This document shows, one piece after another, positions 38,645-60,463 of a stretch of 64,000 nt of DNA. The first letter of the stretch is position 1. Each line of letters starts with the position of its first letter. Source of the stretch: Cohaesibacter marisflavi (GTDB lineage Bacteria; Pseudomonadota; Alphaproteobacteria; Rhizobiales; Cohaesibacteraceae); NCBI RefSeq assembly GCF_900115225.1, contig NZ_FOVR01000008.1:1-64000 (forward strand), read 5' to 3'. Under the pieces are notes generated by a model that saw only the letters and a list, made by a program, of their open reading frames with translations, was not told the DNA's origin and made no database searches. The translations under genes were made by a program, and so were the position numbers.

Positions 38645-39961
38645 CTAGGATTTAAACGAGCGTTGCATGCTTTTTGTGACTGGCTCGAACACCATCTGGA
38701 AGAATGTGCGGGTGCCTGTTTCCAGAAAGGCTTCCACCGGCATGCCAGGAACAAGATCGGGCAGCTCCGTGTCCTGTTCGGGCAAAAGCTCCAGACGCAC
38801 GACAAAATAGGGCCGTTGGGTCCTCTGGTTTATGCGTCTGTCCGGTGAAATGAAAACCACCCGTCCGTTAGCTGCTGGAAATTCGGCTGGATCAAAGGCG
38901 CTCAGGGACAATCTGGCATTCTGCCCTACCCTGACCTGATCGATATCTGCCGGGCGCACCTCGACTTCGATTTGCAGGCGCTTCTGATCCGGCACGATCT
39001 CCACCAACGGCTGATAGGCTGCGATGGCGCTGCCAATGGTGTTGACATGCAATTTGTCTATGGTCCCGCTTGCGGGGGATTGCAGAGCGACCCGATCGAC
39101 CGCCTTGCGCGCGGCTTGCAGTTCGTTGGCCAGTGCCAGCTTTTCAGAGCGCAGCTCTGCCAATTCACGCGAGACTGCTTCATTGAACTGGTCGACGAGC
39201 TGCTTGAGCCGCTGGTCGATTTCGGACATCTGGATGGGCAAGGATTCCGTTTGTGTTTTCAGCTTCTGATAGTCGGTTTCGACTTCGGCGAATTCCTTCA
39301 AGGTGTTCTGGTAGGCTACTTTACTGACGACGCCCTTTTTCATCAGGATTTCGCGCATTTCCACCTGCTCTTGCAGAATTTTGCGCCAGTCGTCCAATGC
39401 CTTGAGTTCGGCCTGAGAGCCCGTCAGCTGTTGTTCAAGAATTGCCTTTTGTTCCTGTAGTACGGATCGTTCTCGATTTTTCAGGCGCTGCCGTGTGGTG
39501 AACTGCTTTTCCTGATCTTGCACCAAACGATCGAACGCCGCCAGATTCGCATATTGCTCCAGCTTTGCCGGAAGGGTATCTGTGTCGAATGTGCCTCGCT
39601 GCTCTTCTGCTTCAAGCCGCAGTTCCTTGATGGCGCTATAGGCCATGCGTGTTTCCAGCTTTGCCAACTCGGCCTTTTTCTCGCTGTCTTCGATGGACAG
39701 CAGCAACTGCCCCTCTTCCACATGCTGGCCTTCGTCAACAGCAATGCTCTGCACCACGCCGCCGCGTTCATGGGCCACCACCTGCGTGCGCCCTTCTTTG
39801 GTTATGGTGCCACGGGCGATAATTGCTCCTTCAAGGGGGGCATATCCGGCCCAGACGCAGAATACGCCGAAGAAGAGAAAAATGACCACGCCGCCAAACA
39901 CCTTCAGAGCCCTGAAAGTGCTTAGGGATTGGATCTCTTTCTCATAGTCGATCATATTCAT
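38645..39961 (-). CDS. Type I secretion membrane-fusion (adaptor) protein, HlyD/PrsE type
   Basis: A periplasmic adaptor linking the inner-membrane ABC protein to a TolC channel, 438 residues. It has one membrane helix near the N-terminus (VFGGVVIFLFFGVFCVWAG), a lipoyl-like half (AHERGGVVQSIAVDEGQHVE), a long coiled-coil hairpin (about 95-270) and the second lipoyl half and beta barrel (SPASGTIDKLHVNTIG, and VGQNARLSLSAFDPAEFPAA). It ends the operon that contains the RTX lyase and the ABC exporter. The outer-membrane TolC partner is not in the window. Confidence 0.93.
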   Translation of the reverse strand: MNMIDYEKEIQSLSTFRALKVFGGVVIFLFFGVFCVWAGYAPLEGAIIARGTITKEGRTQVVAHERGGVVQSIAVDEGQHVEEGQLLLSIEDSEKKAELAKLETRMAYSAIKELRLEAEEQRGTFDTDTLPAKLEQYANLAAFDRLVQDQEKQFTTRQRLKNRERSVLQEQKAILEQQLTGSQAELKALDDWRKILQEQVEMREILMKKGVVSKVAYQNTLKEFAEVETDYQKLKTQTESLPIQMSEIDQRLKQLVDQFNEAVSRELAELRSEKLALANELQAARKAVDRVALQSPASGTIDKLHVNTIGSAIAAYQPLVEIVPDQKRLQIEVEVRPADIDQVRVGQNARLSLSAFDPAEFPAANGRVVFISPDRRINQRTQRPYFVVRLELLPEQDTELPDLVPGMPVEAFLETGTRTFFQMVFEPVTKSMQRSFKS

Positions 39962-39999
39962 GCTTCAGCCCCGTTCCTTTCCAAAGCGGGTAACCCTTT

Positions 40000-41757
40000 C
40001 TAGTGGTCCGTGTTTTCGAGCGTTTTCTGGCTGGATTTGTCCTCTATGGCTTCCGTTTTCCTGTTTGTATCGCGCGGTGCCATCAAGGCTTCTCGCGGAC
40101 CGAATTTAACGACCATGCCATTATCAACAATCAGCACCTTGTTGGCTGAGTTGACCAGATGCATGCGTTGGGTCACGAACAAAACTGTTTTGCCACGGGC
40201 GCGGGCATTTGCGATGGCGGCGACCAACGCCCGTTCGCCTTCCTTGTCCAGGTGCGCATCGGGTTCATCGAGTAGAAGAATTTGCGGATCGCCAAAAAAG
40301 GCGCGAGCCAAATTGATGCGCTGTTTTTGTCCGCCCGACAGGTTGAAGGATACGGTATCGAGATTGGTGTTGTAGCCCTGCGGCAAACTGCCGATAAATT
40401 CGTGCGCACCGGCATTCAGAGCGGCGTTGACGATAGCCTCATCGCTGGCATCGGGATTGAAGCGAGCGATATTCTCGGCCACTGTGCCGTGAAAAAAGTC
40501 GCTTTCCTGTCCGGCATAGCCGATCTCAGCACCCAATTGTTCGGGATCCCATTGCTCCAGTTCGAAGCCATCAATGGAGACTTTTCCCATGCTGGGGCGA
40601 ATAACCGAGGCCAGAACGCGCATTAAGGTGCTTTTGCCTGCCCCGCTGGAGCCGACAATGGCGATGACCTCGCCCGGCTCCACTTCAAAGGAAATACCTC
40701 TCAGCAGTGCCTTGTCTGATGTCGCACCGGGCGGCACGAGGCTGACATTGTCACTGCGAAGATAGCCCTTGATCTCTGGCAGGGTCAGCGGTGCGGGCAT
40801 GTTGCTTGCATCTTGTGTGCCGTTAAACCAGTGCTTGAGGCGATTGTTAGCCACGCTCGCGGCGGTCAATTGTTTGTAGCTGCCGACAAATTGTTCGATC
40901 GGCATCAGCGCGCGGCCCGAGATGATGCTGGACGCAAAGATCAGGCCCGCCGAGAGATGCTCGGACATGACCAGATAGGCCGAACATCCCAGAATCATGA
41001 TCTGAATGGCCTGTCTGGCAAAGCGGACAAGACCGAAAAAGACGCCGTTGACTGCGGAGAGCTCATTGGAGGAATAGACAGCATCGACAATAGTTCGCTG
41101 CCATCTATTCAGTTGGGCCTTGCCCATGCCCATGGCGCAAACATCATCCAGATGCCGCAGAATTTCCGAGCTTTTCGCCGTGGATTGCTGGTATAGGCGG
41201 GATGTGTTGTGTTGATGCCGAGAGGCCATCAATTCGTTGCCAAGCGCCAAAAAGAGCAGAATTAAGGCGCCCAGGCTTGCGACGGCTCCGATCCAAGGAT
41301 GGACAAAAAAGAGAATGGCGAGAAAAATCGGGACAAAGGGCAAGTCGAAGATGCTGAAGAGGCCGCGCCCCGAAAGGAACTGACGCACCGTGGTGACGTC
41401 ATTGAGCAGGGAAGCAAGGCGCGTGCGATCTATCTCCCGATTCTTCACTCCATGCTCAAGTAGCGCCGATTTGGTGCGCAATTCATAATGGACGCTGAGC
41501 TTCTGGGCCACCGTGCGGCGCAGAATTTCGAAAATGCTGAAAAGCCCGATACAAAACAGGATCAACAGGGTGAGATAGAGCAGTGTATCCAGCCCGTCAC
41601 TTGGCAAAACCCGATCATAGATCTGGGAAAGATAGATAGGCATGGCCAGCAAGAGAAGATTGGCTGAGATCGAGAAGACCAACAGCCAAACTCCGAAGCG
41701 AAGGACAATACCAACCCCGACCGGATTGTTTTGTGAAGCTGATATCGTCACATTCAC
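40000..41757 (-). CDS. Type I secretion ABC transporter (permease-ATPase, PrsD type)
   Basis: A fused exporter of 585 residues that drives secretion of C-terminally signalled proteins. The N-terminal half has about six helices. The ATPase half has Walker A IVGSSGAGKSTLM (about 370), signature LSGGQKQRINLARAF (about 475) and Walker B ILLLDEPDAHLD. There is no N-terminal C39 peptidase domain, as expected for RTX-protein exporters of the PrtD/PrsD branch. It lies between the lyase gene and the adaptor gene, so the lyase is the obvious cargo. Confidence 0.94.
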   Translation of the reverse strand: MNVTISASQNNPVGVGIVLRFGVWLLVFSISANLLLLAMPIYLSQIYDRVLPSDGLDTLLYLTLLILFCIGLFSIFEILRRTVAQKLSVHYELRTKSALLEHGVKNREIDRTRLASLLNDVTTVRQFLSGRGLFSIFDLPFVPIFLAILFFVHPWIGAVASLGALILLFLALGNELMASRHQHNTSRLYQQSTAKSSEILRHLDDVCAMGMGKAQLNRWQRTIVDAVYSSNELSAVNGVFFGLVRFARQAIQIMILGCSAYLVMSEHLSAGLIFASSIISGRALMPIEQFVGSYKQLTAASVANNRLKHWFNGTQDASNMPAPLTLPEIKGYLRSDNVSLVPPGATSDKALLRGISFEVEPGEVIAIVGSSGAGKSTLMRVLASVIRPSMGKVSIDGFELEQWDPEQLGAEIGYAGQESDFFHGTVAENIARFNPDASDEAIVNAALNAGAHEFIGSLPQGYNTNLDTVSFNLSGGQKQRINLARAFFGDPQILLLDEPDAHLDKEGERALVAAIANARARGKTVLFVTQRMHLVNSANKVLIVDNGMVVKFGPREALMAPRDTNRKTEAIEDKSSQKTLENTDH

Positions 41758-41784
41758 CTGCTTTTTCGTGTTGGTTGTTCTGCC

Positions 41785-43533
41785 CTAAAGGCTGAAATCC
41801 CCAGACAACAAATGGTCTGATGTTCTGATGTCGACAGCAAAGTCTGCGTCTCCATCGCCATCAACGTCTCCCAGAATGGTCTGGATGCTGCCATCAACTT
41901 CGGTGCGTAATTCACCAGCTACGCCGGAAAATGCGTTTTCACCGATAAAGGAGAAGGCCTGATCACCCGAAACCGTGCTGTTGGCATCAATCGTGCTGAG
42001 ATCAATGATATCGCCTTCGGTGAGGTCAAAATCCTTGAACAGGTCGCGACCACCCACATCAACCGTGCTGTCGTCAATGGATTCCAGCACGAATTTGTCA
42101 GCGCCAGACGAGCCTATGAGCGTGTCAGCACCTTCTCTGCCGACCAGGACATCATCGCCACTATGGCCGAAGAGCTTGTCATCGCCATCGCCACCATAGA
42201 GAGTGTCGTCGCCCTGCCCGCCTCTCAGGTCATCTTTGCCAGCACCACCGTAAAGGGTATCGTCACCCTCACCGGCATTGATCCGGTCATTGCCGGAGCC
42301 GCCATGCAGGATGTCATCACCATCCTCGCCATAGAGCTTGTCATTGCCACCGTCACCGTAGATCGTGTCGTTGCCGTCTTCGCCAAGCAAGCGGTCTTTG
42401 TCAGCCCCGCCATAAATGGTGTCGGCACCGTCACCGCCAAAGATCTTGTCTTTGCCATCGCCACCAGAGAGCGTGTCATCTCCATCACCGCCCAGAATGC
42501 GATCGCGTCCTTCTAGGCCGGTGATCATGTCATCATCGCCGGTGCCATAGAGGCGATCATTGGAGTCGTCACCGGTGATTTCGTTCATGTCATCATGGTT
42601 TCCACCGTTGCCGGTTTCTCCGCCGTCAGTGCCGCCGGTCTCGCCACTTCCGGTTTCTCCGCCGTCAGTGCCGCCGGTCTCGCCACTTCCGGTTTCTCCG
42701 CCGTCAGTGCCGCCGGTCTCGCCACTTCCGGTTTCTCCACCGTCAGTGCCGCCAGGTTCGCCTTCTCCGGTATTTCCATTATCGACGGGTTGTTCTACAT
42801 CAACCAGCCCGCCATATCCCTCACCTTCCGTGTGGGAATAGTCCAAACCGTAAAAGGAAACCTGCCCTGTGCCGGTTCCCATGGATTCGTTAAGCTGGAG
42901 ATAGCAGCCAGCCTTGAAGTTGAGAGGCTCGTTTGTCCAGTGGTCTGTGATGGAGGTTTCGGAGGTATAAACCTCTCCATCAGCATAGATCACCACTTTG
43001 ATTTCATCCCCTCGCACTTCCATCTGATAGGAGAAATTGTCGCCTATACTGATAGAAGGTTCATCTCCGTCTTCATTCGTAAAGCGGAATTTGAGGGTCT
43101 TGTCGTCGGGTCCGCTATGCTCACTGTAATAGTAGACAGAGCCATTGTCCCAATAGAGACGAACAAGCTCGTCTACCTTGCCGCGCACCTGACCAATAAC
43201 GATCTTGCCGTCTTGGCCATTGTCCCAGGTCGGGGCTTCATCGATGCGCAAGGTCGCGGTCATTGTGCCGCCCTCGCTTAGATACCAGGCGGCACTCTCG
43301 TCGCCGTCTTTCTCTCTTAGCTCTGTGCGAGCATAGCGGGCATTGCCGGTTGTTGCGCCGTCAACGCTTGCCGTCATTACCATGGCGCCATCTGCTGCGT
43401 CATAGAAGAACTCGCTTTCATACCCATCCAGCTTGCTTATGGTTCGGGCGCGACCATCGGTTCCACCATCGAAATCAATAGGCAAGTTGAGTTTCCAGGC
43501 GGATAAGTCAAAATTGTCGGAATTCGTTGTCAT
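41785..43533 (-). CDS. Secreted PL7-type polysaccharide lyase with RTX repeats
   Basis: A 582-residue extracellular enzyme without a signal peptide, as expected for a type I substrate. Residues 1-230 form a PL7 (alginate lyase 2) jelly roll: LSAWKLNLP, RYARTELRE and FKAGCYLQLNESMG are the family motifs. The usual QIH/QVH triplet reads GQVRG, so the catalytic His is Arg. A Gly/Thr/Glu linker of four 13-residue repeats follows. Next come about a dozen RTX nonapeptides (GGDGDDTLSGG-like, about 330-480) that bind Ca2+, and a C-terminal secretion domain. It probably trims the polymer made by the adjacent operon. Confidence 0.88.
   Translation of the reverse strand: MTTNSDNFDLSAWKLNLPIDFDGGTDGRARTISKLDGYESEFFYDAADGAMVMTASVDGATTGNARYARTELREKDGDESAAWYLSEGGTMTATLRIDEAPTWDNGQDGKIVIGQVRGKVDELVRLYWDNGSVYYYSEHSGPDDKTLKFRFTNEDGDEPSISIGDNFSYQMEVRGDEIKVVIYADGEVYTSETSITDHWTNEPLNFKAGCYLQLNESMGTGTGQVSFYGLDYSHTEGEGYGGLVDVEQPVDNGNTGEGEPGGTDGGETGSGETGGTDGGETGSGETGGTDGGETGSGETGGTDGGETGNGGNHDDMNEITGDDSNDRLYGTGDDDMITGLEGRDRILGGDGDDTLSGGDGKDKIFGGDGADTIYGGADKDRLLGEDGNDTIYGDGGNDKLYGEDGDDILHGGSGNDRINAGEGDDTLYGGAGKDDLRGGQGDDTLYGGDGDDKLFGHSGDDVLVGREGADTLIGSSGADKFVLESIDDSTVDVGGRDLFKDFDLTEGDIIDLSTIDANSTVSGDQAFSFIGENAFSGVAGELRTEVDGSIQTILGDVDGDGDADFAVDIRTSDHLLSGDFSL
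42611..42766 (-). repeat. Four tandem 39-bp repeats in lyase linker
   Basis: Units begin at 42611, 42650, 42689 and 42728. Copies 1-3 are nearly identical and the last is diverged. Each encodes 13 residues rich in Gly, Thr and Glu (GGTDGGETGSGET). The copy number could vary by slippage, changing linker length. Confidence 0.9.
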
Positions 43534-43636
43534 CGTTTTTCCTCAGCTCTTTCGCCTTTGACAGGCTCACTACATGTCAAAGACCCAAGTTTTGGTCTGA
43601 AAAGCGATCTGGAATTCTTGGTATTCCCTTGGGGGA

Positions 43637-43672
43637 TTTAGACTGTCTTGTATAAAAACAGGATAGTCTAAA
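43637..43672. promoter_or_regulatory. Long dyad upstream of lyase gene
   Basis: TTTAGACTGTCTTGT and ACAGGATAGTCTAAA flank a 6-base spacer about 100 bp upstream of the lyase start. The arms are 15 bp with two mismatches. It lies in the leader or promoter of the lyase-secretion operon. Confidence 0.6.
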
Positions 43673-43720
43673 GAGACTCGCAATTCACTCACCAACTTGG
43701 ACGAAAGTATCGAAAGAATA

Positions 43721-43741
43721 TGGTTAAAAAATTGTTAACCA
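43721..43741. promoter_or_regulatory. AT-rich dyad in the algL-lyase gap
   Basis: TGGTTAA-aaaattg-TTAACCA lies about 110 bp past the algL stop and 190 bp before the lyase start. It may be an operator or a weak terminator of the alginate operon. Confidence 0.4.
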
Positions 43742-43848
43742 TGAATATTGATCCATTTAATCCCCATGATTTAAATCAATAAATACATGATTAAAAATTA
43801 GTCAGTATGTTTATTATTTGTTTTGTTTAATTTTTACTCATTGAATAC

Positions 43849-45138
43849 TTATTGATCATTCTCTCCGAAATCTTGCTTGTCATTTTTGCTATCATGAAAT
43901 CTAAAGGTCATGTTGCCCCCCAATTTGGAATTTCGAAGTGGCCGCAAATCGTTGATTGTGGCATCCAGTTGAGGGTTTTCTTCAAGTGCCAGCAAAGGTT
44001 CAAGCCAGGCAATCTGGTATTTCTTCTGTTCCAGAAGGCCAGATTTGACGGTTTGTGGCTTATCTGTCTTTTCTTCGACAAGTTCGGGCTTTTCGATTGC
44101 CCGTAAGGAGAATTTTGCCGCCATCATCAGGCGATCCATATAAATCTGCGAGTTGCGTTTGTCTGCTTCTTGCAACATGGCTGTTGCCGTGACCATCGGG
44201 GCGACAGCATGCAACTGGTAATGCAGGGCATATCTGCCGCGTCTCATTTCCATGGGGAGACTGCCGTCGGGTTCTATGGTATCCAGAATCACCCGGTGGC
44301 TCTCCAGGCCCCATTCGATGAAATCCTCATTTTCAACGGTCAGGCCGATCTGGATGATAGCCAGCGCGGCCCATGCCCTGAGATTGTTCTTGCTGGCCAT
44401 CGGTGGCCCGTCTGTTTCCCAGAAATGGATGATAGAGTCACCCAAACCAGCCAACCAATGCTCGATGGTCTTTGTGTCTTCGCGATACTCTTCCGGTAGC
44501 TGGACCGTGTTCTTTTTTGCCTGGCTTTCAGACTCATTGAGATCGTCAGAAGCCTCCGCGCTGGCTTTCTTTGTTTCCTCTTCGGTGTCCTGCGGGTCGG
44601 TTTCTTCAAGCAGCTGTAATTGGCCAACCGATGTCACCTCATCTGTTGGCTCCTCTTGTTCTTGCGGGATGAGCGCTTTGAATTGCGCATAGGCAATGGC
44701 GATGCCGCCAACACGTGATGCATAGGAAAGATTGGCTGTCAGACTGTCGATTTCGCTGAAGGAATCCGCTTCCGCCCAGTGATGGATCGCGCCGATGGCG
44801 CAGCGGACGATATCCTCTCTTTGCGATGTCTTCTTTTGTGCCTTGTCGGCCAGTCTTGCCAGAATCTGGATGAATTTGTCCGATGGGCCAAGCGCCTTGT
44901 TAACCGCCGCATTGGCTTCTTTATCAAGCTCCGAGCGCGACTTGCTATCGTCTTTGTAGCGACTGCCATAGCTTAGGGAAATGGTAGCTTCGGGAAAGTC
45001 TGGGCATTGGAAGCCCTCCGCCTCATTGTTAGAAGAGGTCGTTGCAGCCTGAGAAACAAGGCTTGCAAACAGAAGCGGAGTGGCGAGCAAAGTTGCTCGC
45101 CCTCCTTTTCTGATCCATTCTTCGATTTTATAAATCAT
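43849..45138 (-). CDS. algL: AlgL-like periplasmic alginate lyase (PL5), altered active site
   Basis: In alginate producers AlgL is a periplasmic lyase that clears mislocalised polymer. From ATG 45138 (7 bp after the upstream stop) the protein is 429 residues, with signal peptide ATLLATPLLFASLVSQA. PL5 features are MASKNNLRAWAALAI and SLPMEMRRGRYALHYQLHAV, which keep the Arg and Tyr of the active site. The family NNH[SR]YW motif reads NNLRAW (His to Leu), and the early Lys (SKY) reads SRYKDD. About 60 acidic residues are inserted near 160-220. Activity may be lost or changed, although the fold assignment is good. Confidence 0.8.
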   Translation of the reverse strand: MIYKIEEWIRKGGRATLLATPLLFASLVSQAATTSSNNEAEGFQCPDFPEATISLSYGSRYKDDSKSRSELDKEANAAVNKALGPSDKFIQILARLADKAQKKTSQREDIVRCAIGAIHHWAEADSFSEIDSLTANLSYASRVGGIAIAYAQFKALIPQEQEEPTDEVTSVGQLQLLEETDPQDTEEETKKASAEASDDLNESESQAKKNTVQLPEEYREDTKTIEHWLAGLGDSIIHFWETDGPPMASKNNLRAWAALAIIQIGLTVENEDFIEWGLESHRVILDTIEPDGSLPMEMRRGRYALHYQLHAVAPMVTATAMLQEADKRNSQIYMDRLMMAAKFSLRAIEKPELVEEKTDKPQTVKSGLLEQKKYQIAWLEPLLALEENPQLDATINDLRPLRNSKLGGNMTFRFHDSKNDKQDFGENDQ

Positions 45139-45145
45139 GCCGGGT

Positions 45146-47950
45146 TCACTGTGCCTCAGTTTGATTTTCAGAAAGTGCCAGCAAAGTTGCCGACGTCTTG
45201 TCTCCGGCTTCCGCTGCCGCACGGAGCCATTTTTGTGCGAGCTCTGCGGACGGGTTCACCCCAATGCCGAAGGCGTAGTTCTGAGCCAGAATTGCCATGG
45301 CTTCCACATCATCCTTTTCAGCTGCCAACTGCAACCAGCTGCTGGCTTCCTTCAGGCGACTGTCATTGGGTTCGCCGCTTCTGAGGATTTTCGCCAGTTC
45401 GCGCATGGCGACCGGATTTCTTGCCTCAGCTGAAGAGCGATAAAGATTCTCCAGACTGTTATTCTCCAGAACAGCAACCCTGATGGGTTCAGGTGCCCGC
45501 TTTACGCGGTTCGCTATGCCAAAGGACAAGCTTGGTCTTGCGGTTTCGATGGCCTGATTGAAGAGATCGACGGCCAGTGCGGTATCGTAAAACTCGCTTT
45601 TCGGGTCTGCGACCCAATCGAGCAGACGAATGGCTGCGACATTGTTCTTTGCTCTGGCTGCTTCCATGTAAAGATTGAAAGCTTTGGCGCGCGCTTCCTG
45701 CGTTTCCTGCTCGGCATAGATATCGCCCAGTTTTACGCTTTGCCAGTCTTGCGTATGCAGGCGGTCAGCGACATTTAGCCAGTGATTGAATATGTCTGTA
45801 TGGCCGTATGTCTTGCGTAAGAACTCGACCATCTTGAACGACGTGTCGAAATCGCAGCCCATCTGGACGACGGATTTGTTGAACAGATCGCGTTGGCGCT
45901 CTTCATCAGACTGTATAGACGCCAATATCAACAGAGACTGCGCACTGGCGCGTTTTGTCAGATTGTCGAGATGTTTGTTGGTAAAGGCAACCGTTTCCAT
46001 GCCATGAGCCATGCGAGCATTGAGCAGCGCCTGCAATAGATCTTCGGAGATTTTGCCTTCGCTCTTCAGGATCAGATCTTCGGCCGCTTTCACCTTGTCC
46101 ACACTGCCAGCCTCATCTGCAAGATAGATGTTGGCAACGCGCAACATGGCGTTATCGTCTTTTTGATCTGCAAGGGCTTGCAATTCTTCAAGGTAACGAG
46201 CCTTGCCTTCTGGCGTTCTTGCGGCGTTATAGAGGCCGGTAACGAAAGAGGCTTCTCCGCCATCATATTGCTTGGAGAAATCTTGCCAGAAGCTGATTTG
46301 CTGCAGCAATTCTTGCCGTTTTGTTTCATCCTCGGCTATGGCGAGTTTGTCTAACATCAGAGTGGCAAAATTCTGCAGGGCCTTGGTGCGGCCAAACAGA
46401 GCCGTATTCTGGGTGCGGCTCTGGATTTCCCAGTTTCTGTTGCTCTCACCGACTGACGCAAGGCGTAGGCTCTCAGGTGTGACCCTCAAACTGCTGTTGC
46501 CAGCGCCGCGTTCGGCACGTTGCCAGAATCGAGCAATTTTGGTGTCATTCTGACGACGCGAGAAGCAGCTGTGGGCGCGTGAAAGGGCGGACAGAGATGC
46601 CACCTTGCCATCTGCTGAAATGGTTTCATTGAAGAGGTCTATGGCCTTTTCATAGTTGGACGGATCATCATTGTCATGCATCAGCAATTTACCAAGCTGA
46701 TACTGCGATTCCGCGTCCCCCTTGCTCGCCCCTTTTTCAAAATAGGTCTTGGCCATGGGGGTGCCGAGCCACTTGCCCTTTTCTTCCAGTTCAACCTGCC
46801 CCAGTTTGGCAAAAACCCAGCCGGGCGCTTCATCCTGCTCGGACAGGTTCACGAGAGCCTGTTTGAACGCTTTGGCCGCCTTGGGGCTTGTTTTGCGGTC
46901 GGCATCAAGCAATTGCACAATGCGTAAATAGCCCAGACGCGGGTTTTTCTTGACGATCTTGCGATAGATCGCCAGAGCTTCTTGCCTGTTTTCATCAACC
47001 AGCGCGCCGATTTCCAGCGCTCGGGCATATTCAAGCTGAGCTGAAAGGATGTCACCGTCAGAAGCCTGCTTGAGATATTTCACCAGATAGTCGTTATTCT
47101 TGGTCAAATACTCGCTAGTGAGATGATATTCGGCCGACTTCCATGCGGAAAAGTCGTCGCCCAGATCTGCTCCAAATCGATACCATGCATCGCTCAATTC
47201 GTGATCCTGCTGAACCACATCGCCATTGGCATATTCACGAGCGAGCCGAACTGTTCGCTCGCATATGGACGAATTGAGCTTGCCCAGAATGGCGCCAAAA
47301 GCCAGCGTAACCGCGATATCAGGCGCGACATCCCACCCTGCAATCTCTTCGCCGCCAGCTGTGCGCTGGGCAAGATAGAGCATGGCGTTGGGCTCGCCGT
47401 CATAGGCCGCCTGAATTTTCAGCTCGATTGCTTTTTGCGGATCGCTATCGGGATGGAAGCCTTGCAGATGCAGGTCTGCCAGATAGTTCTGGGCCTTGGG
47501 TGAGGTTCCACTCACCTTTTCCAGCTGTTCAACCAGTTGCTTGTCGCGGATCTCCTGAAATTTGCCCGCGCGCATATGGAGCTGGATGAGGTCTACCAGA
47601 TAACGTGCATCGTCGTAATAGGGATCTGCAGCCTTTTGCAGCTTTAAGCCAGCGAGGATCTTGTCGTAGAAGCTGCTCGCATCAATATATTGCAGGCGCA
47701 CCAACTCACGGAAGGATTCTTCGGTCGAGCGGCCCTTGGGCAGCACCTTGCCATCCCAGTCCTGCCAACTGGCAATGATCTGGGCGTCCGGGCGCCGTGC
47801 TTCGCAAATTTTGCCAAGTTCGATCTTCGGAGGGGCGAATTTCACCGCAACAGGCGCTGCCTGAATGCTGGTGCTGGTCAGCAGTCCCACCGCGATCCCG
47901 ATAATGCTTCCGGGCAGCAGTCTGCCCAAACCATATCTGGAGTTTCTCAT
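45146..47950 (-). CDS. Giant Sel1/TPR repeat protein at the algK position
   Basis: A periplasmic repeat protein of about 934 residues. ATG 47950 is preferred because GAGGAG lies upstream. The signal peptide ends STSIQA-APV and lacks a lipobox Cys. The body is built of Sel1-like helical pairs throughout, for example AKTYFEKGASKGDAESQYQLGKLL and the C-terminal NYAFGIGVNPSAELAQKWLR. AlgK of Pseudomonas is a Sel1-type lipoprotein of about 475 residues that scaffolds the AlgE export channel. By position and fold this is its counterpart, but it is twice as long and not lipidated. It could have absorbed other scaffold roles. Confidence 0.72.
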   Translation of the reverse strand: MRNSRYGLGRLLPGSIIGIAVGLLTSTSIQAAPVAVKFAPPKIELGKICEARRPDAQIIASWQDWDGKVLPKGRSTEESFRELVRLQYIDASSFYDKILAGLKLQKAADPYYDDARYLVDLIQLHMRAGKFQEIRDKQLVEQLEKVSGTSPKAQNYLADLHLQGFHPDSDPQKAIELKIQAAYDGEPNAMLYLAQRTAGGEEIAGWDVAPDIAVTLAFGAILGKLNSSICERTVRLAREYANGDVVQQDHELSDAWYRFGADLGDDFSAWKSAEYHLTSEYLTKNNDYLVKYLKQASDGDILSAQLEYARALEIGALVDENRQEALAIYRKIVKKNPRLGYLRIVQLLDADRKTSPKAAKAFKQALVNLSEQDEAPGWVFAKLGQVELEEKGKWLGTPMAKTYFEKGASKGDAESQYQLGKLLMHDNDDPSNYEKAIDLFNETISADGKVASLSALSRAHSCFSRRQNDTKIARFWQRAERGAGNSSLRVTPESLRLASVGESNRNWEIQSRTQNTALFGRTKALQNFATLMLDKLAIAEDETKRQELLQQISFWQDFSKQYDGGEASFVTGLYNAARTPEGKARYLEELQALADQKDDNAMLRVANIYLADEAGSVDKVKAAEDLILKSEGKISEDLLQALLNARMAHGMETVAFTNKHLDNLTKRASAQSLLILASIQSDEERQRDLFNKSVVQMGCDFDTSFKMVEFLRKTYGHTDIFNHWLNVADRLHTQDWQSVKLGDIYAEQETQEARAKAFNLYMEAARAKNNVAAIRLLDWVADPKSEFYDTALAVDLFNQAIETARPSLSFGIANRVKRAPEPIRVAVLENNSLENLYRSSAEARNPVAMRELAKILRSGEPNDSRLKEASSWLQLAAEKDDVEAMAILAQNYAFGIGVNPSAELAQKWLRAAAEAGDKTSATLLALSENQTEAQ

Positions 47951-47973
47951 AGTGATGTTTCTCCTCATTCTGG

Positions 47974-53407: not shown

Positions 53408-53415
53408 TTTGACAC

Positions 53416-55011
53416 CTAGAGCTTACAGCTTTCCAGATTGAGAAGAACAAATTGACGAGCGCCACCATTGCCAACCGCGGCTGCTGTTGAGTTGGTGGTC
53501 GTAAAGATGCCGGAAACCCCGTTGTCGAGCTTTCCTGCACGGGCTAAATATTGAGGTAAATTGCGTTTCAGCTCGCCGGAGAAAAGAACCGGCAGCTGTC
53601 TGGAAAAATCATTGCCAGTCAGTTCCAACTTGGGAGAGTGACGGGCCAGAACACCAATTTCATTGTCAATAAAACGGTTGTGATTCAGTTGATGGCGGTC
53701 TTCGGTGGCGATGCCGCCGATGATGGCAATGGCAGCCCCGCTATTGCCCGCGATAATATTCTTCTGAAAATGCATGGCTAGGCTGTTGGTTGTTGCAATG
53801 CCGCCTTTGCCATTCTGATAGATCGAATTGCCGGAGATCTCGGAACAGGCTGCCCCTTCCAGAGCGATGCCGTCCTGTGCGTTGTCCAGAAGAAGATTGT
53901 TCAGAATATGCGCTTTGGAAACGCCGCCGGAAGCATAGATTCCAGCCCCCTGCCCGCTGGAAATGACATTACCACTGATCATTAGGTTTTTCGGATTCTG
54001 GGTCAGATGGATGCCGTGATGTTGGCTGCCGACAATGATATTGTTCTGAACCTGACCGTTTTCGACATTTCTGATGCGAAGCGCGGAATCTTTGCTGTTT
54101 AAGATCAGATTGTTTCGAATATCAATCTGCTTCATGCCGATCATCTCAATGGATCCAACATCGACAATGCGGTTGGATAGCAGACGCATTTGTGTCTGGA
54201 TCGGAAAGAGCAGATTGGAGACAACATCGATGCCGCGCATATAGGTACGGTCGCCAAAACCCAGATTGGAAAGCTTGCTGCCAACGATATCCGTTCCGCC
54301 ACCAAGAGCTGTCAGGATAAAGGGTTTGAAATCCTTGACCTTATTGCGCTGCTCGCTCCCCTTAAGCTCTGCCTTGTGCATGGAGAAATTGCCGATATTG
54401 ACGACAAATACGCCTTCAGCTGTCGAAAGGGTCAGGGTTTCTCCAGCTTCAATTTGCAATTTGGCCGCCGACATGATGAACAGCGGATAATGCAGGCTGT
54501 AGACACTGTCGCTTTTGGTCAGAGCTTCGCTATTGCCCGCTTTTTCAAGGGCTGCATGGATATCGGCCAGTGTGAAGGCTCCGCTCTGTAAGGTCAGTAC
54601 AGGTTGGCCCGCTCTCGGGTTTGCCAAGCGCAAATCGGCATGATGCTTGCTGCCCATCTGCTTTCTGACCTGCCCGAGCACCAGATCCATCGGCAGAAAA
54701 TCGAGCCGTTGTTTCCGAGCGGTTTTCTTTACGCCTTCAAGGGGAGAGGCTGTTACATCATCACCGTCCTGTCCCCAAGCTTCAGGGGTCAGGCTTGGCA
54801 TGATTTGCGACACAGAATTTGACAACGCATAGATATCCAGATCCGGCGCCAGAGCCAATTGCTGCTTGAGCTCTGTTACATCGCCCAAAGGGTCGGGCAG
54901 TGCGCGCAAGAGCCCCTGTTCTGCACGCGCACTGATCCCTTCCCCGGGCAACAGAGCCGGAGCCATCGCAGCCAATATGAATGCTGTTGTCCGGATCAGG
55001 CCAATCATCAT
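53416..55011 (-). CDS. AlgG-like parallel beta-helix protein lacking the DPHD motif
   Basis: A periplasmic right-handed beta-helix protein of 531 residues in the place of the C5-epimerase AlgG. Signal peptide: TAFILAAMAPALLPG, cleavage near ARA-EQG. Repeated coils carry NNIIVGSQHHGIHLTQ and GNVISSGQGAGIYASGG style turns from about 270 to 450. The AlgG catalytic motif DPHDRS is absent; the aligned segment reads ALRIRNVENG. It may be a non-epimerising scaffold, leaving the product as polymannuronate, or it may use another site. Its start overlaps the algA stop. Confidence 0.72.
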   Translation of the reverse strand: MMIGLIRTTAFILAAMAPALLPGEGISARAEQGLLRALPDPLGDVTELKQQLALAPDLDIYALSNSVSQIMPSLTPEAWGQDGDDVTASPLEGVKKTARKQRLDFLPMDLVLGQVRKQMGSKHHADLRLANPRAGQPVLTLQSGAFTLADIHAALEKAGNSEALTKSDSVYSLHYPLFIMSAAKLQIEAGETLTLSTAEGVFVVNIGNFSMHKAELKGSEQRNKVKDFKPFILTALGGGTDIVGSKLSNLGFGDRTYMRGIDVVSNLLFPIQTQMRLLSNRIVDVGSIEMIGMKQIDIRNNLILNSKDSALRIRNVENGQVQNNIIVGSQHHGIHLTQNPKNLMISGNVISSGQGAGIYASGGVSKAHILNNLLLDNAQDGIALEGAACSEISGNSIYQNGKGGIATTNSLAMHFQKNIIAGNSGAAIAIIGGIATEDRHQLNHNRFIDNEIGVLARHSPKLELTGNDFSRQLPVLFSGELKRNLPQYLARAGKLDNGVSGIFTTTNSTAAAVGNGGARQFVLLNLESCKL

Positions 55012-56447
55012 GCCACCTCTTCGGCGCGGACTTCGACACCAAGTACGGCGGACTTCTGGTAGTCGAGAACTTCTTCGCCTTCGACCTTATATTGGATCTC
55101 AACGATGACAGCGGTTTCGTTGCCTGTATTGCGGAAGGTTGCGGCTTCCCCTTCCTTCACTTCAACCACATCGCCGGGCGTGAACTGGCTGATGCCTGCC
55201 TTGTTGGTAAAGACGCCCTGCCCTTCGGAGAAAGTGAGAAGGCGATGATAGTGTGCCATTTCATCAAACAGCAGCGTGCGGCCCGGTTCGATGCGAAGCA
55301 TGGTGAGATTGAAGCTCTTGCCAGACTGCATCTTGATTGCCTGTCCCCAAGGCAGGGTTTTGGATGCGTGGGCGACCACTTCATTGCGGCCATCTTCCTC
55401 CAGAGTGGAAATGATGGATTTCACTTTTTGACTATGGTCATGGGTGGTCACCAGCAAAGCGTCGTCGGTGTCCACGATCACGAGATCCTCAATGCCCAAT
55501 ACGGCGATCAGGCGGTTCTGTGAGCCACGGATGTAAGAATCCTTGGAGTCGATGCAAACGACGTCACCGGAGACATAGTTGCCCTGATCATCCTTTTCAC
55601 TCACAGCATGGAATGCCTTCCAGGCGCCGACATCATTCCAGTCGATATCGGTTGGAGCGAGAATGGTGCGGTCGGTTTTCTCAAATACGATGGCTTCGGT
55701 CGGGCCACTCACGGCGCGGGCGAAGTCTTCGCCAGCCAGCTCTAGTCGATCCGGGAAATATTCAGCGTTTGAATAGGCCGCCATGACCTGTTCAAAGGAA
55801 TCCGGATCAAGTCTGCGATATTCCTCCATGATCACGTCTGCGCGGAACATGCTGATGCCGGATGCCCAGAAGGCATTGCGGTCGATCATCATCTGTTCGG
55901 CGATTTCAAACGGTGGTTTCTCGACAAAGCGCGAGACCTTTTGTGCAAAGGCCACTTCGTCATGTGGGCCACCATCGACAATGTAACCATACCCGGTTTC
56001 CGGATAGCGTGGCTCGATGCCAAACAGGGCAATCTTGCCTGCGTGGGCAGCGGGGACCATGCGTTTGAGCGCCTTGTTGAGGTCGCCCTTGATGATATGG
56101 TCTGAGGGCAGAACCGCCATGACCGCATCGGGATCCCGAAGGGAAAGGTGGATAGCGGCAGCTAATACGGCCGGCCCCGTGTTTCTGCCAAGCGGCTCTG
56201 CGATAATCGTCGCATTGGTGTCGATATCATTGAGCTGCTGTTTGACGACCCCCAGATGTGACCTGTTCACACTGATTATGGGTTCTTCGAAGCCGTCTGC
56301 AACATGTCTGGAGACGGTCGCCTGGAAGAATGTCGTGTCCTCAGACCCGTTGATGGCCTGAAACTGTTTGGGGTTATTCGAGCGCGAAAGAGGCCAAAGG
56401 CGTGTCCCCACCCCTCCACACAATACCAATGGATAGATGCCAACCAT
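55008..56447 (-). CDS. algA: Mannose-1-phosphate guanylyltransferase (AlgA type) with degenerate isomerase domain
   Basis: It makes GDP-mannose from mannose-1-phosphate and GTP. The nucleotidyltransferase half has GGVGTRLWPLSR (about residue 10) and FVEKPPFEIA. The C-terminal cupin normally carries the type II phosphomannose isomerase motif QxHxHRAEHW; here it reads AHYHRLLTF, losing the Glu and the last His. Isomerase activity may therefore be weak or supplied by another enzyme. I chose ATG 56447 with AAGGATGAG upstream; the frame is open to 56516. Confidence 0.87.
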   Translation of the reverse strand: MVGIYPLVLCGGVGTRLWPLSRSNNPKQFQAINGSEDTTFFQATVSRHVADGFEEPIISVNRSHLGVVKQQLNDIDTNATIIAEPLGRNTGPAVLAAAIHLSLRDPDAVMAVLPSDHIIKGDLNKALKRMVPAAHAGKIALFGIEPRYPETGYGYIVDGGPHDEVAFAQKVSRFVEKPPFEIAEQMMIDRNAFWASGISMFRADVIMEEYRRLDPDSFEQVMAAYSNAEYFPDRLELAGEDFARAVSGPTEAIVFEKTDRTILAPTDIDWNDVGAWKAFHAVSEKDDQGNYVSGDVVCIDSKDSYIRGSQNRLIAVLGIEDLVIVDTDDALLVTTHDHSQKVKSIISTLEEDGRNEVVAHASKTLPWGQAIKMQSGKSFNLTMLRIEPGRTLLFDEMAHYHRLLTFSEGQGVFTNKAGISQFTPGDVVEVKEGEAATFRNTGNETAVIVEIQYKVEGEEVLDYQKSAVLGVEVRAEEVA

Positions 56448-56530
56448 TTTTCTCATCCTTGTCATTTTAATGCACAATGTTCGGTCTTTTGCCCCGGCTT
56501 GCGACTGATGGGGCATTCCTTCACACAGGA

Positions 56531-57640
56531 TCAGAGAACCTGTTGTTTGTACTCATTAAATAAACTCATAAAAGAGACGTATCTGCCGTCCTTGATACGA
56601 AGTTTGGCAGGGCTTCCCGTATCAGCCAGCGTCAATAATCCTTCCGGCGCGGTGAAAGTGACGCGCGTCACTGACTGGCCGGAAACGGGAGGCTTGATGT
56701 CTTTGGTTTGCAGATTAACTGTTCTGCCGTCAGCCAGCGTTGCTTCTGCAACACCGCCAAAGACGAGCATTTCGGCTTCCTTGTCTGGCAGAATGGCCGA
56801 AACCAAAATGCCGCTGTCATTGCCCGGAATGAAGGCAAGATTATCGTCTGTCGCCACCACGTTGCCCACCACGCTTGACTTGGCGATGGTCAGCGTGCAG
56901 TCGCAGGGGTTAACGACGGTCAGTTGACGACCATCGGCCCCCTGAATGGCGACGAGCGGTTCTTCCAGTCCTGCTTGCGGATTGACATAGACGATTTGTC
57001 CATCAACGCCGGACTTGATAACGGCACCGCTTGGCATGACGGTTGCCAGTTTTGGCACATCTCTGATGAGCAGTCGGTTCTGGATCAGGGAACCGGCCAG
57101 CACGACGAGGCCAAGTGTGGCCGCGCCGACAAAGGCGGTCCCCACCATCGACTTGAAGCGCTGGACGAAAGAGCGTTCGCTATCAGCAGCTCCGGCAGGT
57201 GTTTTCTTGGCCTTGTCTGCGGTGACGCTCAGCAGGTCGTTGATATCGACGACTTCGCCTGCGATATAGGCATTGAGAATGTAGCGCAAACGCGGCAGGT
57301 GTGGCCCGGTCGGGTTGAGGAAATCAAGCCGGTAGAGCCCGGTCACCTCGTCCACACAGACCATTACGACCTCAATGGCCATGGTCACCTGAAAGCCTTC
57401 AAAAGGTACCCGGAACGTGGCTGGCTTGATGACCTGCCCATAGTCGCGCGAGGCGAGCCCTTTTACATAGGCGTTGACCAGCGAAATCCCATCGCCCTCA
57501 TATTGCCGTCCTTCAATAACGACCGAGAAAGGCATCTGCAGCATGGCCTGCTCGCTTGTATGATCATCAGAGAGCGAAACGGCATCCAGAGTTTCATAAG
57601 GCTCATGGTCAGGTAGTTTGTTGTGATCGTCGATATGCAT
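56531..57640 (-). CDS. alg44: Alginate co-polymerase Alg44 with degenerate PilZ domain
   Basis: An inner-membrane protein of about 369 residues that works with Alg8. Layout: N-terminal PilZ-like barrel (about 30-130), a membrane helix (GTAFVGAATLGLVVLAGSLI) and a periplasmic adaptor-like domain with the conserved PCDC motif (about 247). The c-di-GMP ligands of PilZ are missing: the RxxxR position reads SEQAM and the DxSxxG position reads SLVNAY. ATG 57640 is preferred since upstream residues are unconserved. Polymer synthesis may not need c-di-GMP here. Confidence 0.85.
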   Translation of the reverse strand: MHIDDHNKLPDHEPYETLDAVSLSDDHTSEQAMLQMPFSVVIEGRQYEGDGISLVNAYVKGLASRDYGQVIKPATFRVPFEGFQVTMAIEVVMVCVDEVTGLYRLDFLNPTGPHLPRLRYILNAYIAGEVVDINDLLSVTADKAKKTPAGAADSERSFVQRFKSMVGTAFVGAATLGLVVLAGSLIQNRLLIRDVPKLATVMPSGAVIKSGVDGQIVYVNPQAGLEEPLVAIQGADGRQLTVVNPCDCTLTIAKSSVVGNVVATDDNLAFIPGNDSGILVSAILPDKEAEMLVFGGVAEATLADGRTVNLQTKDIKPPVSGQSVTRVTFTAPEGLLTLADTGSPAKLRIKDGRYVSFMSLFNEYKQQVL

Positions 57641-57657
57641 GGCAATTAATTCCCAAT

Positions 57658-59121
57658 TCAAACAAGTCCGGTGATCCAGGAAACGCCCAGAGCCAACCAA
57701 CAGAAGGTCAGCCCCTGGAGAAACCAGGAAAATGAGTTTGATTTCATAAAATTAGTGCGAACGGCTTTTGCTTTGTTGGTGGTGTTCTGGCGCGTCCATT
57801 TCTGCTTATCGAGCCGAAACAGGATGTAGCTTTTGACCAACGCACCAAAGGTCTGGCTAAAATAGAGAAGGAAGGGATAGGTAATCGGGAAACGCCCTTC
57901 CCGGAACGAAGAGATAAGCAGGCAAAACAGGTATCTGGTCAGCATCACCCATGCGAGGTAAAGCAGCAGGACAAGTGGATCGACCAGAATGGCGGCCAAT
58001 AGCAAGCCGATGGGGCCTGCAAGGGTCGTCCACATTGACAGGCGCTGGTCAAGAATGGACCACCAGGTAAAGAACCCGATGCGTCCCGGACCGAGCGATA
58101 GGGCTCGTCCGTTGGTTCTGAGCATGTTGCCGAACCAGCGCGTCATCAGGGTAATGGCGGAGTCAAAGAAGCCTGCACGTGGTTGGGTTTCAATGGAAAG
58201 CGTTTTGACATCGGGCAAATAGCCCATCTTGTAGCCATTGCGCAGCAACCAGTACCAGGTCGATTTGTCGTCTCCGGTGAGGAAGTTCACCCGACCCAGC
58301 CGCCAGTGATCGATATGGTCACTCTGTACCGCCTCGATAAACTCGGCGTTGGTGGCAAGGTCAGCCCGGAAGACTGACATCCGGCCAGTCAGCGTCAGGA
58401 CACGCTCACTGATGCCCATGGAACACATCATCATCTGACGCTGGGCAAAGCGAAGGTTGAACCAGTCGCGGAACAGGCGCCCACCCGTGGATTCAGAGGT
58501 TTCGTCCGTTGTCATGGCCCCATAGCTTGGATCAAGGAAATATGGTGCCGAGCGATCGACCACATCCTTGGGGACGCAGCTGTCCCCATCCACGAAGATG
58601 ACGATGTCATTGCGTGAAGGATAATGCTTGGCGATGGTCCTCAATGAGGTTGCCAGCGCATCACGTTTGCCTGTGCCTTCGATCCGGTCAAAGACCAGCT
58701 GCACGCGGCTCATATCCATCGGCATGGAAGCAAATGCGCTTTTGATGAGGCGCACATCGGAGGCATCAACCACGGAGGCTACGATCGTTGCGCCACCTTT
58801 TGAATTGGCCGCCGCCTCGAAGATCGAGCGATAGACGCGGGCTGAAATTTCTGGCGCAATCTTGAAAGTTGTCGTCAGAAAGAAGGCATGCGCCCGGGTT
58901 GGCTTGGCGAAATAGCGTTCCTCGGCAGCATTACGCCGCCGGGGAAACACAACCCGCTTGTACCAGAAGGCACGAAGGAAGTTCGTCGCGGCCCAACTGT
59001 ACCGCCATGCTCCGACAATGCCCAGAACAACGATCGCACCGGAAGCATTGGTGCTGACCTCGACCGGCACGGACAAAGCAAGGATCAGCATCACCATTAT
59101 ATATGCAATGTGAGCCACCAT
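57658..59121 (-). CDS. alg8: Alginate polymerase glycosyltransferase Alg8
   Basis: An inner-membrane family 2 glycosyltransferase of 487 residues that polymerises mannuronate from GDP-mannuronate. Membrane helices lie at the N-terminus and C-terminal third. The catalytic region has DxD in IFVDGDSCVPK (about 170), followed by LTGDDKSTWYWLLRNGY (about 265). All key acidic residues look intact. It is the second gene of the operon, 10 bp after algD. Confidence 0.93.
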   Translation of the reverse strand: MVAHIAYIMVMLILALSVPVEVSTNASGAIVVLGIVGAWRYSWAATNFLRAFWYKRVVFPRRRNAAEERYFAKPTRAHAFFLTTTFKIAPEISARVYRSIFEAAANSKGGATIVASVVDASDVRLIKSAFASMPMDMSRVQLVFDRIEGTGKRDALATSLRTIAKHYPSRNDIVIFVDGDSCVPKDVVDRSAPYFLDPSYGAMTTDETSESTGGRLFRDWFNLRFAQRQMMMCSMGISERVLTLTGRMSVFRADLATNAEFIEAVQSDHIDHWRLGRVNFLTGDDKSTWYWLLRNGYKMGYLPDVKTLSIETQPRAGFFDSAITLMTRWFGNMLRTNGRALSLGPGRIGFFTWWSILDQRLSMWTTLAGPIGLLLAAILVDPLVLLLYLAWVMLTRYLFCLLISSFREGRFPITYPFLLYFSQTFGALVKSYILFRLDKQKWTRQNTTNKAKAVRTNFMKSNSFSWFLQGLTFCWLALGVSWITGLV

Positions 59122-59131
59122 CGTCTCGTCC

Positions 59132-60451
59132 TCACCAACAGATGCCTTCGTAATTGCCGTTGGACGTCACCTTGTTATTGAGGCGAGCCAGATCGACCAT
59201 CGGCAATGTTGAAGCGGCCTTGGAGAGAGGTTCGACAACTTCGGAATATTTGTTTCCGACGAGCAGGATGTCGGATTGCTCGATCAGTGCATCGATAGAG
59301 CTGACAAGGCGTTGTTCCAGATTTTCGACATAGTCGTTGCCACGACCTGCGCCACTCATTGCTTCGTCATAGGCTTCCTGCACGAAGGGATCATAGATCT
59401 TGAGATCGTAACCCTTCTTGATCAAGCGGTCTGCCAGCGCAGCCAAGGGGCTTTCGCGCAGGTCATCGGTACCAGCCTTGAAGCTGATGCCCACCATGCC
59501 AATCGAACGGCCCACCAGATTGTCGACGAGATGTTCTGCGCGGCGGATTTGCGCCTCGTTCGCAGAAAGAGCCACGTCCAGCATCGGAGATGGGACATTG
59601 TTGGACCTTGCCAGGAAGCGCAAAGCGCGCAGATCTTTCGGCAGACACGAGCCGCCAAAGGCGAAGCCAGGGCGCATGAAGTAAGGCGACATGTTGACCT
59701 TCATGTCTGAACAGAGGACGCGCATCACCTCTTGTCCATCAAGGCCGACGGCCTTGGCGATGTTGCCGATTTCATTGGCGAAGGTGATCTTGACGGCACG
59801 CCAGCAGTTGCTGGTGTATTTGATCATTTCCGCGGTGCGCAGATTGACCGAGCTGATTTCGCAATTTAGCTGGCCATTGATCTCGGTCAGAATATCGTCA
59901 GTCTTTTGATCAAGAGCGCCAAAGACGATAAGACCCGGATCATAATAATCTTCAATGGCGGTGCTCTCGCGCAGGAATTCAGGGAAATATCCCACCCCAA
60001 ATTCTTCGCCCGCTGTCATGCCGGAGGATGCTTCCAGAGCCGGGATGCAGGACTTTTCCATGGAGCCTGGTACAATCGTCGAGCGGACGATGACGGAATG
60101 GAACGTGTCCTTGAGGGAAAGCGCACTGCCGATGGCGGTACAAACGCTCAACACATAGTCCAGACCGACAGATCCGTCTGGAGCACTGGGGGTGCCAACG
60201 CATACGAATGACGCATCTGTTTCCAACACCGCTTTACGGGCATCTGTCGTGGCGGTCAATCGACCACTTGCGACGCCGGTTTCAATAAGCTCTTCCAGCC
60301 CATTCTCTACAATGGGGGTTTTCCCGGCGTTGATCGAATCGACTTTGCTCTGATCAACATCCGCAGCAATGACAGTATGGCCGTCTCTTGCAAGACAAGC
60401 TGCGGCTACCGTTCCAACATATCCAATACCAAAAATGCTAATTCTGGCCAC
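59132..60451 (-). CDS. algD: GDP-mannose 6-dehydrogenase AlgD
   Basis: It oxidises GDP-mannose to GDP-mannuronate, the committed step. The 439-residue protein has an N-terminal Rossmann motif ISIFGIGYVGTVAAACLARDG and the catalytic Cys in FGGSCLPKDLRALRF (about 268). I prefer GTG 60451: it has GAGGT five bases upstream and gives the family start VARISIFG. ATG 60463 adds four residues. It is first in the operon, with a 680-bp leader region upstream. Confidence 0.94.
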   Translation of the reverse strand: MARISIFGIGYVGTVAAACLARDGHTVIAADVDQSKVDSINAGKTPIVENGLEELIETGVASGRLTATTDARKAVLETDASFVCVGTPSAPDGSVGLDYVLSVCTAIGSALSLKDTFHSVIVRSTIVPGSMEKSCIPALEASSGMTAGEEFGVGYFPEFLRESTAIEDYYDPGLIVFGALDQKTDDILTEINGQLNCEISSVNLRTAEMIKYTSNCWRAVKITFANEIGNIAKAVGLDGQEVMRVLCSDMKVNMSPYFMRPGFAFGGSCLPKDLRALRFLARSNNVPSPMLDVALSANEAQIRRAEHLVDNLVGRSIGMVGISFKAGTDDLRESPLAALADRLIKKGYDLKIYDPFVQEAYDEAMSGAGRGNDYVENLEQRLVSSIDALIEQSDILLVGNKYSEVVEPLSKAASTLPMVDLARLNNKVTSNGNYEGICW

Positions 60452-60463
60452 GACAAACCTCAT

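Follow-up and report, generated by a model that had tools for sequence, protein, structure and literature searches.

A putative alginate-system variant with altered sensor, epimerase, isomerase and lyase motifs in Cohaesibacter marisflavi and its alphaproteobacterial relatives

We analysed an alginate-type operon of Cohaesibacter marisflavi that lies in a window of 64,000 nucleotides (positions 1 to 64,000 of contig NZ_FOVR01000008.1, assembly GCF_900115225.1). The operon is a minus-strand run of 15 frames, from 60463 to 38645, in the order algD-8-44-A-G-I-J, a gene for a protein of 271 amino acids (aa), algX, algF, a gene for a 940 aa Sel1-repeat protein, algL, and genes for a PL7/RTX protein, an ABC transporter and an HlyD-type adaptor. 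As judged from sequence comparison, it is a genuine and conserved version of the alginate system, not a product of decay, and its pattern of altered motifs belongs to an old clade rather than to a single strain. We observed directly the anatomy of the operon, substitutions shared across the clade, low ratios of nonsynonymous to synonymous substitution (dN/dS) within the genus, and the loss of the catalytic triad of AlgX together with AlgI, AlgJ and AlgF. Our favoured reading, which we regard as probable, is that this lineage (clade B below) has a working system that makes an O-acetylated, non-epimerised polymannuronate, is uncoupled from cyclic diguanylate (c-di-GMP) at Alg44 and uses AlgG as a scaffold.

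Altered and retained motifs in two clades

An Alg8-like match (35-47% identity) turned up in 22 other genomes of a class-wide draw of 385, and the variant therefore looks rare. Among the best 80 loci of a scan of named genomes, 15 fell into one clade (A; 11 of them from Microvirga) and 65 into another (B), together with the operon of the window; both counts are lower bounds. In the Alg8 tree, clade B (68 rows, including the window and the congeners G391 and G392) had a Shimodaira-Hasegawa-like approximate likelihood-ratio test (SH-aLRT) support of 100 and clade A one of 97, and the two grouped together (99). Clade A (loci L140, L142-L151, L153-L156 and L185) has members from Microvirga, Rhizobium nepotum, Rhizobium sp. 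R711, Devosia psychrophila, Chthonobacter and one further genome. Locus L055, which has the PilZ and DPHD patterns, falls outside the A + B group, so that the canonical state is most likely ancestral. As reference operons we used 7 of the 11 AlgG matches over the cut-off, all from one family, presumably the Pseudomonadaceae. In trees that include these seven, a branch supported at 100 separates clade B from the rest for each of Alg8, AlgD and Alg44; clade A (with L185) has support of 97 for AlgD and 77 for Alg44, and needs two changes for Alg8. The clade B substitutions recur across Rhizobiaceae and Rhodobacterales, and were counted over rows long enough to score, which number 66 for Alg44, 63 for AlgG, 61 for AlgA and 23 for AlgL.

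A canonical Alg44 carries the PilZ signatures RxxxR and D/NxSxxG. The Alg44 of the window had no Pfam match at an E value of 0.001 and aligned weakly along Alg44 PilZ structures (E 0.3). Both PilZ arginines are missing throughout clade B (0/66 rows), as is the aspartate (0/66); Ser73 and Gly69 are invariant, and the (E/D)HP and PF elements are conserved. The canonical residues are present in 15/15 aligned rows of clade A and in L185, and in 7/7 reference operons. Binding of c-di-GMP to Alg44 is reported to be essential in P. aeruginosa (PMC8461298; this and the papers cited below were available in part). We conclude that the Alg44 of clade B, unlike that of P. aeruginosa, is probably not switched by c-di-GMP in the PilZ manner.

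AlgG of the window is a beta-helix protein with an NCBIfam AlgG match of merely 34 bits. The D-x-H-D of the epimerase centre is found at the aligned position in none of the 63 clade B rows, one of which has an unrelated DLHD at another site; in clade A, D-x-H-D and the SR that follows it are present in 16/16 rows (exact DPHD in 6), and DPHD occurs in 7/7 reference operons. The centre segment is variable in clade B, the conserved positions being largely of structural types (Gly, Asn, Cys, Phe, Leu, Pro), and a conserved replacement centre was sought in the alignment and not found. An AlphaFold model (31 rows; mean predicted local distance difference test (pLDDT) score of 84) matched the solved AlgG 4ozz with a target template-modelling (TM) score of 0.73. 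The corresponding model of AlgL (17 rows; mean pLDDT 84) matched the solved AlgL 4ozv with a target TM of 0.84, its first fold match being a multifunctional PL5 enzyme. In both proteins the predicted fold is retained and the centre altered.

Precursor supply appears to be intact. AlgD belongs to the family UDPG_MGDP_dh, and its best match in the PDB is the GDP-mannose dehydrogenase 1mfz (457 bits), followed by a UDP-glucose dehydrogenase (248 bits); UDP-glucuronic acid was disfavoured as the precursor on the strength of this difference. In AlgA, the match to the guanylyltransferase (GMP) domain is strong and the core GMP residues and E-K-P are invariant (61/61 clade B rows), which, together with the similarity of AlgD, makes GDP-mannuronate the most likely precursor. 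By sequence, GDP-mannuronate supply through AlgD and GMP is thus as in a canonical alginate operon. The isomerase (PMI) part of AlgA scored 21.7 and 24.4 bits in two scans (cut-off 23.6), and its motif is present in 0/61 rows of clade B, as against 12/13 of clade A and 7/7 reference operons. The PMI half is variable in sequence across clade B, and a strong match to PF01050, the PMI family, lies in a separate frame of 478-553 aa in 15/16 clade B genomes examined (not in G447); hence, this half looks plainly decayed, with loss of function.

Alg8 is a GT2 synthase whose canonical core motifs are also found in clade A and in the reference operons. Six positions (aa 47, 288, 309, 313, 321 and 400) are nearly fixed in clade B (66-68/68 rows), with other residues in clade A and in the reference operons; four of the six surround TGDDKS and the loop after it. 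We drew no conclusion from H323, T457 and E460, Alg8 residues that in P. aeruginosa are linked to activation by c-di-GMP; the His at residue 322 of L180 is absent from Alg8 of clades A and B alike, and T457 and E460 could not be placed.

For O-acetylation, AlgI is an MBOAT protein, and AlgJ and AlgX are members of the ALGX family that align well with their solved structures; the catalytic residues of AlgI, AlgJ, AlgF and AlgX are, by sequence, canonical in the window and the B1 rows. Some clade B loci have no algI, algJ or algF, a state that arose twice on the tree (in Martelella and in a group of Rhodobacterales). Marinovum algicola is one species without these three genes, and other carriers of the operon include Yoonia maritima and Tabrizicola soli. 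The Asp-His-Ser triad of AlgX is present in 40/40 rows where the locus has AlgI and in 0/21 where it does not. This pattern agrees with the part of a published study in which deletion of AlgI, AlgJ and AlgF left an unacetylated polymer that was still secreted, and deletion of AlgX compromised secretion (PMC9734138).

In AlgL, the active-site His is replaced by Leu (NNL for NNH) in 23/23 clade B rows, and 18/18 additional distinct copies, each from a different clade B genome, likewise have NLRxW; the His is kept in 12/13 clade A rows. Arg328, Tyr335, Asn280 and Trp284 are invariant (23/23 clade B rows). According to the accessible part of one study in P. aeruginosa, AlgL H202A had no detected activity in vitro and the cells grew like wild type, which the R249A, R249E and Y256F strains did not (PMC8829089). 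AlgL of clade B looks re-tooled rather than simply degenerate. A His beside the Tyr was considered as a compensating catalytic residue and rejected: it is invariant in the 23 rows, but in 4/18 of the additional copies its place is taken by K, Q, N or Y.

PL7 alginate lyases carry the motifs R(S/T)E(L/V)R, Q(I/V)H and YFKAGxYxQ. The PL7 protein of the window lacks the full set, having RTELRE, QVR for QIH, and NFKAGCYLQ. The site reads QVR or QLR in six copies from the genus, and QIH or QVH in frames beside eight clade A loci. Its PL7 domain matched the glucuronan lyase structure 7nde at 43 bits and alginate lyases at up to 84 bits. A literature search returned nothing on a glucuronan-lyase reading of QVR, which we leave as a lead.

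The original prediction had named the c-di-GMP sensor, epimerase, isomerase and lyase as altered, and polymerisation, precursor supply and O-acetylation as retained. Comparison with solved structures and relatives agrees with the former, and the Alg8 core, the GMP residues and the AlgI, AlgJ and AlgX motifs were all found. For the lyase, the description needs narrowing: the His is lost, but the site is not erased, as Tyr, Arg, Asn and Trp remain.

Congeners and selection

The proposed check of the operon across alphaproteobacteria, for conserved substitutions and dN/dS, was carried out. A close Alg8 (74-99% identity) was present in 5 of 17 congeners searched, all with the identical 15-gene order and identical substitutions in Alg44, AlgA, AlgG, AlgL and PL7; these are shared even by G392, whose proteins are just 38-81% identical. 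We calculated dN/dS by the method of Nei and Gojobori for the window against congeners G386, G397 and G391, leaving aside the near-saturated values for G392. Across all 15 genes, dN/dS was 0.007-0.167 at dS of 0.14-1.88, lowest for algD, and 0.10-0.15 for algG, about 0.14 for algL and 0.04-0.17 for the 271 aa gene. In G397, the reading frames of algJ and algL are both broken in two, possibly through a frameshift or an assembly error; in the other four operon-bearing congeners all 15 frames are open. Thus, close relatives do not carry the canonical motifs alongside a copy here under relaxed selection.

A distant Alg8 (36-38%) occurs, at other loci, in one further congener and in two members of the family's other genera, and the distant-Alg8 loci L047, L049 and L076 show PilZ and PMI patterns. 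The Alg8-like loci L047, L049, L051 and L075, from one congener, one member of the family and two genomes within the order, have AlgI, frames with the PilZ pattern and an intact PMI motif; these are apparently a separate system.

Product, export and competing explanations

Under our favoured reading, AlgD and the GMP half of AlgA would provide GDP-mannuronate and Alg8 would polymerise it. Alg44 would be needed as a co-polymerase without PilZ-type c-di-GMP binding, and polymerisation may be constitutive or answer another signal. AlgI, AlgJ, AlgF and AlgX would O-acetylate the chain, and clade members without AlgI, AlgJ and AlgF would make a non-acetylated polymer. AlgG may be retained as a beta-helix scaffold in the periplasm, without epimerase activity, where it and the large Sel1 protein would guard the polymer. 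AlgL, with its kept fold and Tyr/Arg pair, may have reduced or altered activity in periplasmic housekeeping, and may still clear the periplasm. The predicted product, O-acetylated, non-epimerised polymannuronate, would leave the cell through a pore, none of the AlgE type having been identified. In the available part of a published study, catalytic mutants of AlgG gave high-mass polymer at normal yield, which strains lacking the AlgG protein did not reach, and fragments resulted from loss of the AlgG, AlgX, AlgK or AlgE protein (PMC3815931). The original prediction of an acetylated, possibly non-epimerised polymer under different control is supported by these comparisons, except that the pattern is clade-wide and not peculiar to this strain.

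We searched for the AlgE-type porin PF13372 and found none in the operon and none in the window genome up to an E value of 1, in a search that had no alginate producer as positive control; among 14 control genomes there was a match in Bacteroides ihuae only. PF13372 was matched in 2/18 clade A and B genomes, and, with no match in 16/18, lack of this porin does not set clade B apart. The 940 aa Sel1 protein scored 23.8 bits against the NCBIfam model of AlgK (cut-off 700). The product of the 271 aa gene, some clade B copies of which are truncated, had no Pfam match even at an E value of 0.1.

Several points weigh against our interpretation. No outer-membrane porin was found for export of the polymer. 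Since c-di-GMP binding is essential in P. aeruginosa, a c-di-GMP-free Alg44 would need some other activation, and none was found. The independent co-losses in AlgX amount to two pairs, too few for significance in an independent-pairs or sign test. The accessible part of one P. aeruginosa study reports that AlgL is dispensable for alginate production (PMC5099689). The fast evolution of AlgG (dN/dS 0.10-0.15 at dS <1; 38% identity to G392) is also consistent with a scaffold that is fading. Finally, in a draft genome that is 98.5% complete, some other kind of extracellular epimerase could have escaped notice.

An alternative is that the clade makes another acetylated uronan, glucuronan-like or mixed, to which AlgG, AlgL and PL7 have been re-tuned. 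The AlgL substitution, fixed and specific in the 23 rows and 18 further copies, would fit altered specificity; the multifunctional PL5 enzyme that is its first fold match, the PL7 His to Arg change common to all six genus copies, the match to 7nde and the six Alg8 positions that set clade B apart point the same way. However, AlgD is GDP-mannose-like and the GMP residues are invariant, which makes GDP-mannuronate the most likely precursor; the core motifs of Alg8 are the same as in clade A and the reference operons; and AlgG has no conserved replacement centre. We therefore consider this alternative unlikely.

Less likely still is ordinary alginate, with guluronate restored by an extracellular or unrelated epimerase in the manner of AlgE1-7 of Azotobacter. 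Those enzymes are extracellular epimerases according to the available part of one paper (PMC3815931), a type I exporter is encoded in the operon, and the RTX portion beside the PL7 domain matches solved fragments of AlgE4 and AlgE6. However, the exporter adjoins the PL7/RTX protein and not an epimerase. The window genome had no second AlgG homologue up to an E value of 1, and no PF12708 protein was found in it or in four genomes of the genus examined (matches do occur in G444, G446 and G451). Of 29 sites coding for DPHD in the window genome, none looked like that of an epimerase, in a comparison that judged flanking residues by eye and was not exhaustive. The centres of AlgE-type epimerases may read other than DPHD.

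Decay, in which the operon would be losing function gene by gene as its motifs drift, was already disfavoured and we judge it very improbable: the variable PMI half, the ranking of algG, algL and the 271 aa gene among the fastest, the split frames of G397 and the absence of a close version from 12/17 congeners are outweighed by the open frames of the other four operon-bearing congeners, the low dN/dS of all 15 genes, the recurrence of the substitutions across two groups, Rhizobiaceae and Rhodobacterales, and the retained synthase core, GMP and acetylation residues. The recurrent substitutions and low dN/dS thus uphold the core of the earlier claim of a functional variant, with the PMI half as the part that looks plainly lost.

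A bolder reading, which we advance tentatively and hold to be somewhat doubtful, is that of a widespread lineage in which the co-polymerase would sense a cue other than c-di-GMP, the epimerase and, twice independently, the terminal acetyltransferase would have become pure scaffolds, the active site of the lyase would be rearranged, and a pure (acetyl)mannuronan or an undescribed uronan would leave by an exit other than an AlgE-type porin. In P. aeruginosa, AlgG and AlgX combine structural with catalytic roles that are hard to separate, and clade B would be a natural experiment in which the proteins are kept and the chemistry removed. If our interpretation is correct, these species would be natural producers of pure mannuronan with a c-di-GMP-free Alg8-Alg44 pair for studies of mechanism, and with an unexplained route through the outer membrane. 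A literature search, with subscription journals mostly outside its reach, found no paper on the clade B variant.

Gene map and comparison with known systems

A listing of frames and family scans bears out the gene order and coordinates given originally, save that the original label Sel1 is not confirmed for the protein between AlgJ and AlgX.

Features of the alginate-type operon, in positions of the window
Feature	Position	Strand	Evidence or remark
algD, GDP-mannose 6-dehydrogenase type	59132..60463	-	457 bits to 1mfz
alg8, GT2 polymannuronate synthase type	57658..59121	-	DGDS, TGDDKS, RWFGNMLR retained
alg44, co-polymerase	56531..57700 (likely ATG start 57640)	-	PilZ-like N-terminus without RxxxR or Asp
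Altered PilZ signature of Alg44, aa 49-81	57458..57556	-	(E/D)HP..PF...G..(I/L)S(L/V)..A replaces RQHxR...DxSxGG
algA	55008..56516	-	GMP half intact; PMI half inactive by motif
AlgA site of lost PMI motif QxHxxRxEHW, aa 416-432	55221..55271	-	alignment
algG-like beta-helix protein without epimerase centre	53416..55011	-	family scan, alignment, predicted fold
AlgG site aligned to lost D-x-H-D, aa 312-315 (RIRN)	54067..54078	-	alignment
algI, MBOAT O-acyltransferase	51935..53407	-	sole PF03062 match of the genome
algJ, SGNH-like acetyltransferase	50756..51925	-	DTHW and GTS retained
271 aa secreted or lipoprotein-like protein	49957..50772	-	present in 57/65 named clade B loci
algX, acetyltransferase	48622..49941	-	DFHW and GTS triad retained
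algF	47974..48606	-	PF11182, 54.7 bits
940 aa Sel1-repeat protein at the place of AlgK	45146..47968	-	family scan; weak NCBIfam AlgK match, 23.8 bits
algL-like PL5 protein	43849..45222 (likely ATG start 45138)	-	family scan, predicted fold
AlgL NNLRAW, active-site His to Leu	44371..44388	-	alignment to solved structures
AlgL RRGRYALHYQ, catalytic Arg and Tyr retained	44215..44244	-	alignment
PL7 alginate-lyase-like domain with RTX repeats	41785..43533	-	QIH to QVR
PL7 Q-V-R at the Q-I-H motif site	43183..43191	-	alignment
Type I secretion ABC transporter, PrtD type	40000..41757	-	TIGR01842, 540.8 bits (over cut-off)
Type I secretion adaptor, HlyD type	38645..39961	-	TIGR01843, 318.4 bits (over cut-off)

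Upstream of the operon and in the same direction, about 1.1 kb from algD, lies a gene for a LuxR-type protein (61602-62288), a candidate regulator. Elsewhere in the window, a 613 aa protein with curlin-type repeats (29275-31116) adjoins a 530 aa protein without a Pfam match, and may be an amyloid component of the matrix; a radical SAM protein adjoins a sulfatase (21370-24566), a possible sulfatase/maturase pair. A PADLOC scan of seven proteins of the window gave no match.

The closest Alg8 and AlgD relatives of clade B are the clade A loci, which likewise have large Sel1 proteins where scanned (L140 and L153). PF13372 was missing from 4/5 clade A genomes searched, and PL7 frames lie beside 8/15 of the named loci. 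Unlike clade B, clade A keeps RQHxR/DxSxGG in Alg44, D-x-H-D with SR in AlgG, and, in all rows but one for each, the PMI motif and the AlgL His; its AlgG frames also differ in having an N-terminal extension (1035-1348 aa).

With the operon of Pseudomonas and Azotobacter (algD-8-44-K-E-G-X-L-I-J-F-A), that of the window shares the motifs of AlgD, Alg8, the GMP half, AlgI, AlgJ, AlgF and AlgX, and has homologous Alg44, AlgG and AlgL. It differs in gene order, in having no PilZ ligand residues, epimerase centre, PMI centre or AlgE, in the His to Leu change of AlgL, in a large Sel1 protein in place of AlgK, and in the additional 271 aa gene, PL7/RTX protein and type I exporter. A functional parallel is engineered, epimerase-negative P. 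fluorescens, in which, according to the available part of the report, the AlgG protein is likewise needed, its epimerase activity is dispensable and the product is polymannuronate (PMC3815931). Those strains are laboratory mutants, whereas the state of clade B is natural and clade-wide.

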